This document shows positions 3,692-55,380 of a DNA stretch of 64,000 nt, piece after piece. The number at the start of each line of letters is the position of its first letter. Positions within the stretch are counted from its first letter, which is position 1. The stretch lies in assembly GCF_003752505.1 (NCBI RefSeq), contig NZ_RKHO01000001.1:1-64000 (forward strand), written 5' to 3'. Source of the DNA: Nocardioides aurantiacus. Its GTDB lineage: Bacteria > Actinomycetota > Actinomycetes > Propionibacteriales > Nocardioidaceae. Made by a program: the position numbers and the translations under genes. The notes under the pieces are model-generated. The model did no database searches. It was not told the DNA's origin and saw only the letters and a program-made list of their open reading frames with translations.

Positions 3692-4666
3692 ATGCGCGCA
3701 GTCACCGCCCCCGAGCCCGGAGGGCCCGACGCCCTCGTCGTCTCCGAGCACCCCGACCCGACGGCCGGTCCCGGCGAGGTCGTCATCGACGTCGTCGCCA
3801 CCGCGGTCAACCGCGCGGACACGTTGCAGCGGCAGGGGTTCTACCCGCCGCCGAAGGGGGCCTCCGACGTGCTGGGCCTGGAGTGCTCGGGCCGCATCAG
3901 CGAGGTCGGCGCCGGGGTCGAGGGGTTCGCCGTCGGCGACGAGGTGTGCGCGCTGCTCGCGGGCGGGGGGTACGCCGAGAAGGTCGCCGTCCCCGCCGGT
4001 CAGGTGATGCCCGTGCCGAGCGGGATCGACCTCGTGACCGCCGCCGCCATCCCCGAGGTGGCGTGCACGGTGTGGTCCAACGTCTTCATGGTCGCCCACC
4101 TCGGCCCCGACGAGACGCTGCTCGTCCACGGCGGCGCGGGCGGCATCGGCAACGTCGCGATCCAGCTGGCCAAGGCGCTGGGCGCCCGGGTGCTCACCAC
4201 CGCGGGCACGGCCGAGAAGCGGGCGTTCTGCGAGTCGATCGGCGCGGACCGGGCGATCGACTACCACGAGGAGGACTTCGTGGCGGTCGCCAAGGAGGAG
4301 GGCGGCGTCGACGTCATCCTCGACAACATGGGGGCCTCCTACCTCGACCGCAACGTCTCCGCGCTGGCCACCGAGGGCCGGCTCGTGGTGATCGGCATGC
4401 AGGGCGGCAGCAAGGGCGAGCTCGACCTCGGCAAGCTGCTCTCCAAGCGCGGCGCCGTCATCGCCACCTCGCTGCGCGCCCGCCCGACCGAGGAGAAGGC
4501 CGCGATCTGCGCCGCCGTCGTCGAGCACGTCTGGCCCCTGGTCAGCGAGGGCAAGGTGCGCACCACCGTCCACGAGACCGTCCCCCTCGACGAGGTCGCC
4601 CGCGCCCACGAGCTGATGGGCTCCGGCTCCCACACCGGCAAGATCGTGCTGCAGATCGGCTCGTGA
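3692..4666 (+). CDS. NADPH:quinone oxidoreductase, zinc-independent MDR family
   Basis: This 324-residue protein belongs to the zinc-free medium-chain dehydrogenase/reductases of the PIG3/QOR type, which reduce quinones with NAD(P)H in the cytosol. An N-terminal GroES-like domain contains AVNRADTLQRQGFYPPPKGA and LGLECSGRISEVGAGV. The Rossmann fold has LVHGGAGGIGNVAIQLAKALG near residues 143-163. The cysteines that bind structural zinc in alcohol dehydrogenases are absent. The physiological substrate is unknown. The gene stands alone with its own leaderless promoter and is followed by a repeat-rich gap of nearly 500 bp. Confidence 0.85.
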   Translation: MRAVTAPEPGGPDALVVSEHPDPTAGPGEVVIDVVATAVNRADTLQRQGFYPPPKGASDVLGLECSGRISEVGAGVEGFAVGDEVCALLAGGGYAEKVAVPAGQVMPVPSGIDLVTAAAIPEVACTVWSNVFMVAHLGPDETLLVHGGAGGIGNVAIQLAKALGARVLTTAGTAEKRAFCESIGADRAIDYHEEDFVAVAKEEGGVDVILDNMGASYLDRNVSALATEGRLVVIGMQGGSKGELDLGKLLSKRGAVIATSLRARPTEEKAAICAAVVEHVWPLVSEGKVRTTVHETVPLDEVARAHELMGSGSHTGKIVLQIGS

Positions 4667-4861: not shown

Positions 4862-5040
4862 CGTCATACGAGCTGGTCGTCGGGACGCGGGCTGCGTCGT
4901 ACGACGTGGTCGCCCCGACGACGAGGACGTATGACGGGACCCGGGACGTCATACGAGCTGGTCGCCCCGACGACGAGGACGTATGACGGGACCCGGGACG
5001 TCATACGAGCTGGTCGCCCCGACGACGAGGACGTATGACG
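4862..5040. repeat. Family A palindromic units, four copies
   Basis: Four 42-bp units occur at 4862-4903, 4895-4936, 4947-4988 and 4999-5040. Each begins with CGTCATACG or CGTCGTACG and ends with its near reverse complement (CGTATGACG or CGTCGTACG), around a conserved core containing GCTGGTCG and CGACGAGG. Units 1 and 2 share a 9-bp arm; units 3 and 4 repeat every 52 bp with a GGGACCCGGGA spacer. The same unit recurs at 46777-46880, so this is a dispersed element and not a local tandem repeat. Confidence 0.8.
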
Positions 5041-40908: not shown

Positions 40909-40968
40909 TAGTCCGAGACGTTTGGCACGCGCCAAGGGCGCAAGAGGGGTGCCGAACGTCTCGGACTA
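40909..40968. repeat. Family B inverted repeat, copy 2
   Basis: TAGTCCGAGACGTTTGGCAC at 40909-40928 pairs with 40949-40968 over 20 bp with a single G-U. The 20-nt loop contains a small GCGCC...GGCGC hairpin. It lies 15 bp after the malic enzyme stop and may serve as its terminator. Confidence 0.8.
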
Positions 40969-45139: not shown

Positions 45140-46747
45140 GTGAGCCAGGACCTCGAGACACCCCCGCAGCCCACCGGCCCGACCGGCCCCTCCGGCCCCT
45201 CCGGCACCGACAAGCTCGACCGGGACGTGCTGATGGTGGCCGGGGTTGTCGTGCTCGGCGCGATCATGTCGATCCTGGACATCACCGTCGTCTCGGTCGC
45301 GCTGCGCACCTTCCAGGAGGAGTTCGACGCCACCGCGGCGCAGGTCGCCTGGACGATGACGGGCTACACCCTCGCCCTGGCCAGCGTCATCCCGCTGACC
45401 GGCTGGGCCGCCGACCGCTTCGGCACCAAGCGGCTCTACCTGCTCGCGGTCACGCTGTTCACCGCCGGCTCGGTGCTCTGCGCGGCGGCGAACACGCTCG
45501 AGACGCTGGTCGCCTTCCGGGTGCTCCAGGGCCTCGGCGGCGGCATGCTGATGCCGCTCGGCATGACCATCCTGACCCGCGCGGCGGGCCCCGAGCGGAT
45601 CGGTCGCGTGATGGCCGTGCTCGGCGTACCGATGCTGCTCGGCCCCATCTTCGGCCCCATCCTCGGCGGCTGGATGATCGACGCGTTCTCGTGGCACTGG
45701 ATCTTCCTGATCAACCTGCCGATCGGCGCCGCCGCCCTGGCGTACGCCTGGATCGTGCTGCCCCGCGACGCCGTCGAGCCCTCGGAGTCCTTCGACTTCG
45801 TCGGGATGCTGCTGCTCTCGCCCGGCCTGGCCGCGTTCCTGTACGGCGTCTCCTCGATCCCCGAGACCGGCACCTTCTTCTCCGCCCGGGTGCTGGTGTG
45901 GACCCTCCTCGGCCTGGCCCTGATCGCGGCGTTCGTGCCGTGGGCGCTGCGCGAGGCCAACGTGCACCCGCTGATCGAGCTGCGGCTGCTGCAGAACAAG
46001 AACATGACCGTCGCCGTGCTGGCGATGATGCTGTTCGCGATCGCGTTCTTCGGGGCCAGCCTGCTCTTCCCGCTCTACTTCCAGCAGGTCCGCGGCGAGT
46101 CGGCGCTCAGCTCCGGGCTGCTGCTCGCTCCCCAGGGCATCGGCGCGATGATCACGATGCCGATCGCCGGCATGCTGGCCGACAGGATCGGGCCCGGCAA
46201 GATCGTGCTCGTCGGCATCGCCGTGATCACCGCCGGCATGGGCATGTTCGCGATGTTCGTCGGCGAGGGCTCGGGCTACGTCGCCCTGATCGTCGCGCTG
46301 TTCGTGATGGGTCTCGGCATGGGCGGCACGATGATGCCGATCATGACCGCCGCGCTCGCGACGCTGTCGCCGCGCAACGTCGCCCGTGGCTCGACCTTCC
46401 TCAACATCACCCAGCAGGTCGCCGCCTCGATTGGGACGGCGCTGTTCTCGGTGCTGCTGACCAACGGCTTCAAGGACAGCCCGACCGTCGCGCTCGGCAC
46501 AGCCGTGCAGGCGCTGCAGGACTCCCCGCAGCGGCTCGCCGCCTTCCTGGAGCAGCAGGGCCTGGACCCCTCCGACCTCGCCGGCCTCCAGGGCCGCGTG
46601 GTCGCGGAGATGGCCGACACCTTCGGCTTCGTCTTCTGGGTCGCCACCGGCCTGGTCGCGCTCTGCCTCGTCCCGGCGGCGTTCCTGCCGCGGCGCAAGG
46701 TCGAGCACCCCGCCGGCGAGCAGGCCCCGGTCCTCGTCGGTCACTGA
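45140..46747 (+). CDS. MFS drug exporter, DHA2 (14-TM) family
   Basis: The 535-residue protein matches the DHA2/EmrB group of proton-driven exporters: LMVAGVVVLGAIMSILDITV as helix 1 with the LDITVV motif, VAWTMTGYTLALASVIPLTG, WAADRFGTKRLYLL as motif A, and RVLQGLGGGMLMPLGMTIL. About 14 hydrophobic helices span residues 30-515. A Pro/Gly-rich N-terminal tail precedes them. It should expel lipophilic compounds across the inner membrane; the actual substrates are unknown. No TetR or MarR regulator is adjacent. Two family A repeat units follow the stop. Confidence 0.92.
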   Translation: MSQDLETPPQPTGPTGPSGPSGTDKLDRDVLMVAGVVVLGAIMSILDITVVSVALRTFQEEFDATAAQVAWTMTGYTLALASVIPLTGWAADRFGTKRLYLLAVTLFTAGSVLCAAANTLETLVAFRVLQGLGGGMLMPLGMTILTRAAGPERIGRVMAVLGVPMLLGPIFGPILGGWMIDAFSWHWIFLINLPIGAAALAYAWIVLPRDAVEPSESFDFVGMLLLSPGLAAFLYGVSSIPETGTFFSARVLVWTLLGLALIAAFVPWALREANVHPLIELRLLQNKNMTVAVLAMMLFAIAFFGASLLFPLYFQQVRGESALSSGLLLAPQGIGAMITMPIAGMLADRIGPGKIVLVGIAVITAGMGMFAMFVGEGSGYVALIVALFVMGLGMGGTMMPIMTAALATLSPRNVARGSTFLNITQQVAASIGTALFSVLLTNGFKDSPTVALGTAVQALQDSPQRLAAFLEQQGLDPSDLAGLQGRVVAEMADTFGFVFWVATGLVALCLVPAAFLPRRKVEHPAGEQAPVLVGH

Positions 46748-46776: not shown

Positions 46777-46880
46777 CGTCATACGTGCTGGTCGTCGGGG
46801 CGACGGGGTCGTATGACGTCGCGTGCTCGGGCCCGGGACGTCATACGTGCTGGTCGTCGGGGCCACCGGGTCGTATGACG
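46777..46880. repeat. Family A palindromic units, two copies
   Basis: Units at 46777-46818 and 46839-46880 are each 42 bp, opening CGTCATACGTGCTGGTCG and closing CGTATGACG, separated by a spacer containing GGGCCCGGGA. They match the units at 4862-5040 in length, arms, core and spacer type. The rest of the gap to 47032 shows no gene. Confidence 0.8.
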
Positions 46881-47032
46881 TCCGGGGGCTCGCGGGTTGA
46901 CGAGGGGGGCGTACGCCGGCCCCCGCTCCCTCGACGTGCGGATGTCGCTGTCGAGCCCGGGGGGAGTCCGAGCGGGCCCGGGCGCCACAGGTGCCTGTCG
47001 AGCACCGTCGACCGGGCTGCACCCGGCAACGC

Positions 47033-52858: not shown

Positions 52859-55380
52859 CAGCGGAGCCGCTCGTTCTCGGGGTCGAGCAGCGGCGTCGCG
52901 TCGACCGAGCCGACCGTGACCGGGTAGAGCTCCTCCATGTAGGACACGGCGAGACGGTTGCCGATCGTGGCCTCCTCGGGCGGCAGGAACGCCAGCAGCA
53001 CGTGCGTGCCGAGCGAGGGCGCCGAGCCGGCGCTGGTGACGTAGGGATGGTGGCCGTGGCCGTCGGTCAGCAGCCCACCGTCGGCGCTCAGGATCGGCTC
53101 GCCGCCGAGCATGTAGCGCTTCACGCCGCTGGCCGAGGTGTGGTCGTCGACGGTCAGCGTGCACAGCACCGTCGCCGGCGCCCCCTCCCGCTGGGCGAGG
53201 TAGGCCTCCTTGCCGAGGAAGTCGGCCGCCTTGACCTTGGGCCGCTGCATCCCGGTCTCCACGATGGTCCGCTCGGCGTCGAGCTCGGCGCCGAAGGCGC
53301 GGTAGCCCTTCTCGATGCGGCCGGTGGTGCCGTAGACCCCGATGCCCACCGGTCGTACGCCGTGCTCCTTGCCGGCCGTGAGCAGCGCGTCCCACAGTGA
53401 CGCGGCCGCCGAGAACGGCACGTAGAGCTCCCAGCCCAGGTCGCCGACGTAGGAGATCCGCGAGGCCAGGACCGGGGCGTCCACGCCCTTGACGTCGATC
53501 TCGCGGGAGGTCAGGAAGCCGAAGCCGCCGTCGCTGAGGTCGTCGGAGGAGAGCGAGGCGAGCACCTCGCGGGCCTTCGGGCCCCAGATGCCGATCGTCG
53601 AGACCTCCTCGGTGACGTCGGCCAGCTCGGCCCCGTCGACCAGCCGGTCGGTGAAGTGCTTGCGGTCGGCCATGCCGTGGGCGCCGCCGGTGACGACCCG
53701 GAAGCGGTCCTCGCCCAGCCGCATCACGGTCAGGTCGGAGAGGAACCCGCCCTTGGCGTCGAGCACGGGCGTGTAGACGACCTTGCCGACCGCCACGTCG
53801 CACTGCGCGACGCAGGTCCGCTGCACCGAGGCGAGCGCACCGGGCCCGGTGATGTCGAGCACCTGGAACGCGGTGAGGTCGACGACGCCGGCGTGCTCGC
53901 GCATCGCGAGGTGCTCGGCGTTGATGATCGGGCTCCACCAGCGGCTGTCCCACTCGTGCTCGCGGGGCATCACGGCCTCGCCGTAGGTCTCCAGCAGGTC
54001 GGCGTTGGACTCGTACCACCACGGCCGCTCCCAGCCGACGGTCTCGTGGAAGACCGCGCCGAGCGCCTTCTGCGAGTCGGCCATGGGCGAGAACCGGATG
54101 TCGCGGTCCGAGCCCCACTGCTCGCCGGGGTGGACGATGCCGTAGGTCTTGTTGAACGCCTCGCTGGTGCGCGCCCGGACGTGCTCGCGGGTGGTCTCGT
54201 GGGGGTGGAAGCGCGCGATGTCGCTGTGGTGCAGGTCGATCTCGGAGTGGCCGTGGGTCATCCACTCCGCCACCGCGCGTCCGACGCCCGGACCCTCCTT
54301 GATCCAGACCGCGGCCGAGACCCACAGGCCCTCGACCTCGCTCTCGCCCAGGATCGGGTTGCCGTCGGCGGTCAGCGAGAGCAGACCGTTGATGGCGTAG
54401 CGGATCTCCGCCCCCTCGGCGCCGAGCAGCTCCGGCATCAGCTCCAGGGCCTCCTCGAGCTGCTGGTCGAAGTCGTCCTCGGTGAACGGCATCTCGGTGG
54501 GGGACAGCCGCGCCTGCTCGATCGAGGGGATCTCCTCGGGCTCGTGCAGGATCGGCCGGTGGGCGTAGGAGCCGACCTCCATGTCGGCGCCGTGCTGGCG
54601 CTCGTAGCAGAAGGTGTCCATGTCGCGGATGATCGGGAAGGAGATCTCGCCCTCCTTCTCGGCCAGCTGCGGGCACGGACCGACCGAGATCATCTGGTGC
54701 ACCGCCGGGGTCAGCGCGATCCGGATGCCCGCCATGTCGCCGAGCTTGGGGCTCCAGACGCCGGCGGCGATCACGACGTACGACGCCTCGATGGTGCCCT
54801 GGTCGGTGACGACGCTGCGGATGCGCCGCCCGTGCTCGCCCTCCTCGACGACGAGGTCCTCGACCTCGGCGCCCGCGACGACGGTCAGCTCGCCGGTGGC
54901 CAGCGCCTGCTCGCGCATGATCGTGCCCGCGCGCAGGGAGTCGACGACGCCGACGGTGGGGGTCCAGAACGCGCCGATGATCTGGTCGGGGTCCAGGAAC
55001 GGCACCTTCTCGACGACCTGGGCCGGGGTGACCAGCTCGGAGTCGATGCCCCACGCCTTGGCACTGGACATGCGCCGCCGCAGCTCCTCCATCCGCTCCT
55101 CGGTGCGGGCCACCTCGAAGCCGCCGGACTGGGTGAAGACGCCCATCTCCTGGTACTGCCGGACCGAGTCCATCGTCAGGTCCGTGATCTCCCGGGAGTG
55201 GTCCACCGGGAAGATGAAGTTGGAGGCGTGACCGGTCGAGCCGCCCGGGTTGGGCAGCGCTCCCTTGTCGAGCTGGACGACGTCCTTCCACCCCAGTCGG
55301 GTGAGGTGGTGGACCAGGCTGTTGCCGACGATGCCGGCGCCGATCACGACGACGTTGGCGGTGCTGGGGACGGTGGCCAC
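52858..55380 (-). CDS. Dimethylglycine-dehydrogenase-like FAD/folate enzyme
   Basis: The 840-residue protein joins a DAO-type FAD oxidoreductase (residues about 1-390; dinucleotide fold NVVVIGAGIVGNSLVHHL) to GcvT-type folate domains (about 440-840; EHAGVVDLTAFQVLDITGPG, YVGDLGWELYVPFSAAASLW). This is the plan of dimethylglycine and sarcosine dehydrogenases, which demethylate N-methylglycines and load the methyl carbon onto tetrahydrofolate. H51 in GGSTGHASNF sits where the covalent-FAD histidine is found in the family. The adjacent etfBA genes suggest a dehydrogenase rather than an oxidase. The GTG start has GGGAGG upstream. The exact N-methyl substrate is not proven. Confidence 0.85.
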   Translation of the reverse strand: MATVPSTANVVVIGAGIVGNSLVHHLTRLGWKDVVQLDKGALPNPGGSTGHASNFIFPVDHSREITDLTMDSVRQYQEMGVFTQSGGFEVARTEERMEELRRRMSSAKAWGIDSELVTPAQVVEKVPFLDPDQIIGAFWTPTVGVVDSLRAGTIMREQALATGELTVVAGAEVEDLVVEEGEHGRRIRSVVTDQGTIEASYVVIAAGVWSPKLGDMAGIRIALTPAVHQMISVGPCPQLAEKEGEISFPIIRDMDTFCYERQHGADMEVGSYAHRPILHEPEEIPSIEQARLSPTEMPFTEDDFDQQLEEALELMPELLGAEGAEIRYAINGLLSLTADGNPILGESEVEGLWVSAAVWIKEGPGVGRAVAEWMTHGHSEIDLHHSDIARFHPHETTREHVRARTSEAFNKTYGIVHPGEQWGSDRDIRFSPMADSQKALGAVFHETVGWERPWWYESNADLLETYGEAVMPREHEWDSRWWSPIINAEHLAMREHAGVVDLTAFQVLDITGPGALASVQRTCVAQCDVAVGKVVYTPVLDAKGGFLSDLTVMRLGEDRFRVVTGGAHGMADRKHFTDRLVDGAELADVTEEVSTIGIWGPKAREVLASLSSDDLSDGGFGFLTSREIDVKGVDAPVLASRISYVGDLGWELYVPFSAAASLWDALLTAGKEHGVRPVGIGVYGTTGRIEKGYRAFGAELDAERTIVETGMQRPKVKAADFLGKEAYLAQREGAPATVLCTLTVDDHTSASGVKRYMLGGEPILSADGGLLTDGHGHHPYVTSAGSAPSLGTHVLLAFLPPEEATIGNRLAVSYMEELYPVTVGSVDATPLLDPENERLR

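Follow-up and report, generated by a model that had tools for sequence, protein, structure and literature searches.

Dispersed palindromic units in Nocardioides aurantiacus and a candidate cognate nuclease with AbiEi-type and Vsr-type folds

According to the accessible text of PMC2817692, every RAYT gene lies between two REPs in inverted orientation, and the REP and RAYT trees agree. This arrangement (REPtrons, REPINs) is the nearest system in architecture to the one described here. Both comprise short, dispersed and clustered extragenic palindromes at gene 3′ ends, and the likeness extends to a bracketed helper gene, several repeat–helper pairs and a helper and repeat that change together, as far as the accessible part of PMC2817692 describes them. 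The helper there is a HUH tyrosine transposase, whereas the candidate helper here is an AbiEi-Vsr/EDxHD-type nuclease; the units here are near-symmetric, 42–46 bp long (36–52 bp in relatives), with specific arms of 9–12 bp, and neither the units nor their consensus carry an unpaired GTAG tag. A further group, the CGTC-tagged REPs (Di Nocera 2013), ends in CGTC and reportedly has no dedicated transposase; the available text of PMC3733652 describes an unpaired CGTC tag, a stem of 8–9 bp and a loop of 4–5 nt, mainly in Alphaproteobacteria. In the present units, by contrast, CGTC pairs with GACG inside the long arms of a 42-bp element, and we claim no relation.

Two protein families are pertinent to the nuclease. 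The homing endonuclease I-Bth0305I forms dimers on targets that measure nearly 60 bp, as stated in the accessible portion of PMC3943268. EDxHD homing endonucleases and Vsr resemble the nuclease described here in catalytic fold (Z 12.3 and 10.3); the latter differs in its N-terminal AbiEi-type domain and in the many genomic palindromes that bracket its gene and are co-distributed with it. AbiEi, the antitoxin of the type IV toxin–antitoxin system AbiE, binds an inverted repeat whose 11-bp arms stand 27 bp apart, 49 bp in total, according to the part of PMC3985639 that was accessible. It resembles approximately the first 200 residues of the nuclease by fold and profile, and the operator geometry outlined in that text resembles the unit (arms of 9–11 bp, N24). 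The present protein differs in that the AbiEi-type part is fused to a nuclease-type domain and no AbiEii gene adjoins it in four loci. In fungal mitochondria, palindromic GC clusters are dispersed in genomes that also hold homing endonuclease genes; we know of no one-to-one cognate pairing of these clusters with nucleases, and the genomes are those of organelles. At the level of titles and opening lines of abstracts, in a literature search whose scope left most subscription papers and bioRxiv preprints outside, no link of DUF559/AbiEi-type nucleases to palindromic repeats was found, and the terms sought for nuclease–palindrome pairs gave nothing in the accessible text of RepRanger (PMC12306157) or of a Caulobacter Vsr-like study (PMC12907096).

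The window, that is, the whole 64-kb stretch of N. aurantiacus DNA that was analysed, contains five full units of one palindrome family, termed family A, and one truncated unit. They form two clusters and carry no assigned strand:

4862-4894, truncated family-A unit; left arm and core exact, right arm missing, joins the unit at 4895
4895-4936, family-A unit by pattern match; left arm variant CGTCGTACG
4947-4988, family-A unit with exact arms; 10-bp spacer on each side, 52-bp period
4999-5040, family-A unit by pattern match, with exact arms
46777-46818, family-A unit with exact arms; between convergent genes
46839-46880, family-A unit with exact arms; 20 bp after the unit at 46777-46818

An earlier note on this DNA had counted six units sharing 9-bp arms. 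Five of them are full units, and the copy at 4862, which scored as a full unit at 3 mismatches, is a truncated left half running into the unit at 4895; the shared arms are exact in four full units, while the left arm at 4895 reads CGTCGTACG. The note's placement of both clusters after gene 3′ ends was borne out, the first unit lying approximately 195 bp from the stop codon at 4666 and the second cluster approximately 30 bp past the stop codon at 46747. A half-unit pattern (up to 3 mismatches) matched 13 times in the window against 1.43 expected (100 shuffles, maximum 5), including matches with 3 mismatches each at 54768 and 56011, outside both clusters. At the Rfam gathering threshold, only tRNAs were matched in the window and in 16 unit-bearing loci; in the window, these are two tRNA genes on the minus strand, at 835-922 and 2047-2131. 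The window also contains a 52-bp palindrome at 40913-40964 (CCGAGACGTTTGGCAC..GTGCCGAACGTCTCGG, 19 of 26 pairs), which does not belong to family A.

Across the 4.06-Mb genome, the family-A pattern (CGTCATACG-N24-CGTATGACG, nearly always 42 bp in length) was found at 39 places with up to 3 mismatches, compared with 0 for a reversed-pattern control; at least two of the 3-mismatch places, 2013841 and 3166855, have no inner core and probably match by chance. The earlier note would have been refuted by an absence of further copies in the genome or by mere duplications of one larger segment. The 39 places contradict the former. As for the latter, the units are not copies of a larger segment, because conservation, read from loci in other species, ends a few bases beyond the unit and because the genes next to them differ. 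The gap between the arms was 24 bp in 26 of 27 arm pairs from loci of this genome when gaps of 5–45 bp were searched, although most of these loci had been fetched by the N24 pattern itself. In loci L179–L224, many of which had been retrieved through the nuclease rather than through the unit, units with CGTCATA-like arms were 42 bp long, with one exception of 43 bp, when the length was left free between 36 and 49 bp. With the outer bases included, the element is a 46-bp palindrome, GACGTCATACG-N24-CGTATGACGTC, in 58 of 58 cases from loci that were mostly N24-derived.

Placement was judged with our own gene caller for 18 clusters outside the nuclease locus, a set that leaves out the half-site locus L270 (without a full unit), 2013841, 3166855 and other half-site matches. 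Twelve clusters lie between convergent genes, five between tandem genes and one between divergent genes, and two clusters of this set run into the 5′ end of a gene as called. Within arrays, 38 of the 51 spacers of at most 70 bp between neighbouring units measure 10 or 20–22 bp. The resultant of the spacers at a 10.5-bp period is 0.76, with a nominal p that is optimistic because units of one array may be duplicates. Spacers of 7–8 bp also occur in this genome, and periods other than 10.5 bp fit slightly better in two of three spacer sets, the best-fitting period being 13.6 bp in this genome and 11.8 bp over all units. A second dispersed palindrome of 46 bp, family B (GACGTCATC..GATCGTGG..CCACGATC..GATGACGTC, 46 bp in 5 of 5), adjoins or stands near family-A units in this genome and in its close relative G089:

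L268:1605-1650, family-B unit
L275:1596-1641, family-B unit
L281:456-501, family-B unit
L294:516-561, family-B unit
L295:337-382, family-B unit

Eight pairs of units lying 1.0–2.4 kb apart were inspected. Five of them, in different genomes, enclose the same gene (loci L064, L080, L089, L113 and L167), while three enclose other genes (L051, L057 and L173). A profile made from four of the enclosed proteins was run over 120 genomes of the family, and its scores fell into two separate groups: approximately 250 bits and up in 28 genomes, counting G117 with its split copy, and paralogs at 170 bits or below. A profile of the nuclease had no match in the 64-kb window. In N. aurantiacus, the gene lies elsewhere in the genome, with units on both sides (no strand assigned to the units):

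G000:C1:3258003-3258902, minus strand, nuclease gene; 405 bits, outside the window
3257793-3257834, unit by pattern match, one side of the nuclease
3257872-3257913, unit by pattern match, same side
3257924-3257965, unit by pattern match, same side
3259030-3259071, unit by pattern match, other side of the nuclease

The genome also encodes a second nuclease paralog (locus L248, G000:C1:517503-518372), which is bracketed by a palindrome of its own, GTCGTGAGGCTGAGAGG.., in a fixed-coordinate flank test and failed a stricter one.

The protein of approximately 315 residues is a fusion of an AbiEi-type antitoxin fold and a Vsr/EDxHD-type nuclease fold. In the AlphaFold2 model (mean pLDDT 90.8), residues 6–202 superpose on AbiEi (6y8q; Z 11.3, 186 aligned, 4.2 Å), residues 207–309 on I-Bth0305I (3r3p; Z 12.3, 95 aligned, 2.5 Å), residues 204–308 on Vsr (1cw0; Z 10.3, 100 aligned, 2.5 Å) and residues 205–309 on an endonuclease-like protein (3hrl; Z 12.4). 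AbiEi was the only Foldseek match with E below 0.001, and PADLOC assigned the N. aurantiacus protein to AbiEi (E 1.2e-16), which means only that an AbiEi-like domain is present. With a limit of E 0.01, DUF559 matched 23 of 49 members and AbiEi_4 matched 10. RAP-type domains of mitoribosomal proteins and of FASTKD4 scored Z 8–10 on the nuclease fold; because the fold is common to RAP-domain proteins of mitochondria and mitoribosomes, it is not by itself proof of cutting. G204, E210, D241, E252, G255, H258 and R270 are invariant in the 49 nucleases and include residues of catalytic type, and catalysis is therefore probably retained.

In G084 and G104, the nuclease gene has a fumarase gene on one side and a spermidine-synthase-like gene on the other; in N. 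aurantiacus (G000), G089, G066 and G095, it lies beside one of these genes or near both. Its occurrence at related places in six genomes of the genus indicates mostly vertical inheritance there. In G078, which has no nuclease, the fumarase and spermidine-synthase-like genes are approximately 53 bp apart, with flanks too diverged for cassette junctions to be read. The nine neighbour proteins in four loci are all ordinary proteins, with no AbiEii toxin or known defence gene among them by Pfam. A plasmid or phage origin was also considered and rejected: no plasmid match for the nuclease was found, and the single phage record, an unannotated contig from human stool (MT837139.1:3673-4449), encodes a relative 41% identical over 83% of the nuclease.

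When GTDB genomes were scanned with the exact pattern, at least 120 stretches matched, and among the matches listed, 79 of 80 loci belong to Nocardioides, Marmoricola, Mumia or Aeromicrobium, the remaining one to an unplaced actinomycete MAG. Of the 120 genomes of the family, 54 have at least one unit match with up to 2 mismatches, at 0–64 copies per genome. The distribution is patchy even among the 24 genomes of the genus, 14 of which lack a match and 3 more of which have one only. Units follow the nuclease in this sample: at least three were present in 25 of the 28 genomes with the nuclease versus 11 of the 92 without it (Fisher p 3e-14, a value that overstates independence because the sampled genomes are related by descent). 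Within the genus, all seven nuclease-bearing genomes have 14–52 units each, and 3 of 17 nuclease-free genomes have at least three.

Exceptions occur in both directions. Six genomes (G013, G035, G043, G044, G113 and G116) hold 10–26 CGTCATACG units without the cognate nuclease subfamily; these units may be relics, their helper may have been lost or left unassembled, or another helper may serve them. Conversely, G062 has the nuclease and no unit, and G090 has the nuclease and two units. G054 has the nuclease without CGTCATACG units, and carries four exact CGTGTGACG-N24-CGTCACACG units, of which one pair flanks the nuclease while the other two lie elsewhere; no exact copy of this type was found in the other 119 genomes of the family.

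To quantify bracketing, a strict flank test was applied (9-bp arms with at least 8 of 9 paired in each unit, equal length, an arm match of at least 16 of 18, within 400 bp), the outcome of which is affected by the choice of start codon. Of the 31 subfamily loci, 26 came out as bracketed and 5 failed; of the 39 paralog loci, 19 were bracketed and 20 failed. Under identical criteria, 5 of 184 called genes of 700–1300 bp, from 80 unit-bearing loci and the window, were bracketed; four of these five are the nuclease itself (L064, L080, L089 and L119, the last encoding a protein 59% identical to that of N. aurantiacus), and the fifth lies in L073. With fixed coordinates and wider overlap, 29 of 40 loci (3 of the 40 belonging to the specific subfamily) were bracketed, versus 2 of 204 pseudo-gene windows placed in the window. 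All flank controls come from Nocardioidaceae loci, and as thresholds differ slightly among the fixed-coordinate, strict and class-wide tests, only the 184-gene control matches the strict test exactly. Class-wide, the protein family was found in 151 of 246 genomes and 62 of 95 genera at E 1e-15 or better; among the matches listed (30 loci), 25 are bracketed, including 13 of 18 outside the family.

The arms differ between nucleases (CGTCATACG, CGTCATGCG, CGTCCTACG, CGTCATGGC, CGTGTGACG, GTTGTCAG, CGTCCGGCTG and GTCGTGTGC were observed), and protein identity correlates with arm similarity (Mantel r 0.65, p 0.0002) for 45 of the 49 nucleases, which were picked mostly for having flanks. A single genome, G096, encodes three subfamily nucleases, two bracketed with different arms and a third that failed the flank test. 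Moreover, three other nuclease palindromes were checked, and each proved to be dispersed in its own genomes, in up to 59 copies. Among 12 genomes searched, CGTCCGAAGA-N22-TCTTCGGACG numbers 59, 19, 29 and 18 copies in four that belong to family f14 and 0 in the other 8, one of which is also f14. For GTCGTGTGCT-N26-AGCACACGAC, the count is 16 in G043, where one pair flanks the nuclease of that genome, and 9 in G028, where one pair flanks a paralog; any match to it was found in 20 of the 120 genomes of the family and none in the other 100.

Collectively, the co-distribution and the flanks give good sequence support to a pairing of nuclease lineages with private dispersed palindromes. Recognition of the units by the cognate nuclease is very likely on these comparative grounds, and mobilisation by it is likely. 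For the units of N. aurantiacus, we consider it probable that they are dispersed recognition elements of a cognate nuclease whose gene stands at another place in that genome. The best reading is thus of a REP-like repeat that is recognised, and probably spread, by a nuclease unrelated to RAYTs, and nuclease and units together resemble a compact selfish element whose helper is an enzyme of unfamiliar kind. The helper-mobilised repeat suggested in the earlier note stands in that a helper gene flanked by units exists; its kind is that of an AbiEi-Vsr/EDxHD-type nuclease and not that of a RAYT.

A possible mechanism can be proposed by analogy with AbiEi. The AbiEi-type winged-helix half would bind the 9–11 bp arms as a dimer, whereby two Vsr/EDxHD-type nuclease domains would sit over the 24-bp middle. 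A nick or break at the unit, or at a unit-less allele, would then be repaired from another unit, and units would therefore multiply, form regular arrays and homogenise. The nuclease with two flanking units would constitute the master element, from which the single units and arrays would derive as non-autonomous copies. Units would persist where they are least harmful, between convergent gene ends, possibly serving as terminators there.

In the close relative G089, matched gene ends are 82–99% identical to those of N. aurantiacus, seven of them at 98–99%. At the L279 site, N. aurantiacus has 2 units versus 4 units and one family-B unit in G089, with none in G084, G104, G075 or G081. At 46837-46882, a family-A unit occupies the position where G089 aligns a 46-bp family-B unit with the same outer eight bases, and in G084, the units at the L272 site have CGTCATGCG-type arms, as do the units bracketing its nuclease. 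No unit is visible at the L267 site in G084 or G066, but these were not counted as empty sites because the downstream flank is not orthologous. Neither a target-site duplication nor a clean single-unit empty site was found at the orthologous sites compared, where intergenic DNA is too diverged for junctions to be read. Differing unit numbers and types at orthologous sites are what turnover by breaking and copying would be expected to produce, with junctions not clean enough for proof.

Several other explanations of the units were weighed. They could be sites of host regulation, in which a domesticated regulator or nucleoid protein would use the units as operators or architecture sites and bracketing would reflect autoregulation, with no mobility. 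AbiEi does autoregulate through an inverted repeat in its own promoter, according to the accessible text of PMC3985639, the nuclease occupies related places in the genus, and the regular spacers (38 of 51 at 10 or 20–22 bp; 0.76 at 10.5 bp) would suit protein binding on one face. Yet an operator does little between convergent genes, where 12 of 18 clusters lie as against 1 between divergent genes, and the units stand on both sides of the nuclease gene. Furthermore, their number differs between N. aurantiacus and G089, four other species lack units at L279, the distribution is patchy inside one genus, and the catalytic-type residues are invariant in 49 sequences; we therefore regard a purely regulatory role as unlikely. 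Convergent intergenic placement near stop codons and a stable hairpin would equally fit bidirectional transcription terminators, or mRNA-stabilising hairpins, that share their sequence by chance. Such structures require no particular arm sequence and no nuclease gene enclosed by a pair of them, whereas arm sequence and gap are constant here (24 bp between the arms for 26 of 27 pairs in this genome) and common to other genera, and matches are lacking in 14 of the 24 genomes of the genus and limited to one in 3 more. This makes the terminator explanation quite improbable.

The AbiEi-type N-terminus, together with a nuclease fold common to Vsr and restriction enzymes, might instead indicate a defence or toxin–antitoxin module, whose effector would be antiviral or toxic and whose genomic units would act as decoys or self-marks. 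We hold this to be very improbable, as the Pfam search of nine neighbour proteins at four loci revealed neither an AbiEii partner nor a defence gene, and the PADLOC match denotes an AbiEi-like domain only. Classical REP/BIME elements moved by a RAYT, the guess of the earlier note, look similar, being short clustered extragenic palindromes at gene 3′ ends with a flanked helper, as the accessible text of PMC2817692 describes. This option is scarcely credible here: no Y1_Tnp was detected in the N. aurantiacus genome, the only 2 of 120 family genomes with Y1_Tnp (G003 and G010) are free of units, and the units have no unpaired GTAG or CGTC tag, CGTC lying inside the stem. The Pfam search for Y1_Tnp itself worked, with matches in 5 of 14 control genomes, and RAYT was rejected as the helper.

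Recognition by a cognate nuclease thus remains the preferred reading, and it could tentatively be extended to a new class of selfish element widespread in actinomycetes. Each would comprise an AbiEi-Vsr nuclease and a private palindrome of approximately 36–52 bp that brackets its own nuclease gene, would spread in the manner of homing and not by transposase chemistry, and would belong to one of dozens of orthogonal pairs, several of them in some genomes; we consider a class of this breadth possible, though somewhat doubtful. RAYTs are the one type of helper studied in depth for REP-type palindromes; the nuclease described here is a candidate helper unrelated to them for a set of actinomycete repeats. 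With it, the barely annotated DUF559-like family becomes open to experiment, as a target can be predicted for many of its members, and it would provide many orthogonal sequence-specific nuclease–site pairs.

Finally, the units were examined as hairpin or duplex. Single-strand DNA folds gave z −2.6 to −4.9 in four folds, as for any palindrome; for the unit at 4999-5040, z was −4.6 on the plus strand and −3.9 on the minus strand. The earlier note had proposed selection on a hairpin, which covariation in N. aurantiacus does not favour: 29 units (of the 39 places) have 173 inner pairs, fewer than the 193.4 found in shuffled halves, because positions 10/33, 11/32, 19/24 and 21/22 are usually mismatched. 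In G131 and G149, 40 distinct units among the matches listed, of 78 places, have 323 inner pairs versus 340.9 expected, with mismatches at 16/27, 17/26 and 20/23. The G163 units (11 of 29, hand-picked) are neutral (75 vs 70.4, p 0.24), and those of G043 (16 of 16) show positive covariation (161 vs 133.7, p 0.0005), the sole positive of the four sets. The pairing deficit implies that units are oriented, with usual mismatches, and such units fit either an asymmetric duplex site or a bulged hairpin. Palindrome families that differ in their arms have the half-sites GGTCGC and GGCTGC in common. At positions 16/27 and 17/26 of the G131 and G149 units, these half-sites are joined as mismatched pairs more often than in shuffled halves, as if a fixed bulge were favoured. 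The single genome G163 holds units of two subtypes, CGTCCGAAGA.. and CGTCCGACGA.., whose centre is CTATAG or CTAGAG, a finding that suggests two nucleases or a recent split.
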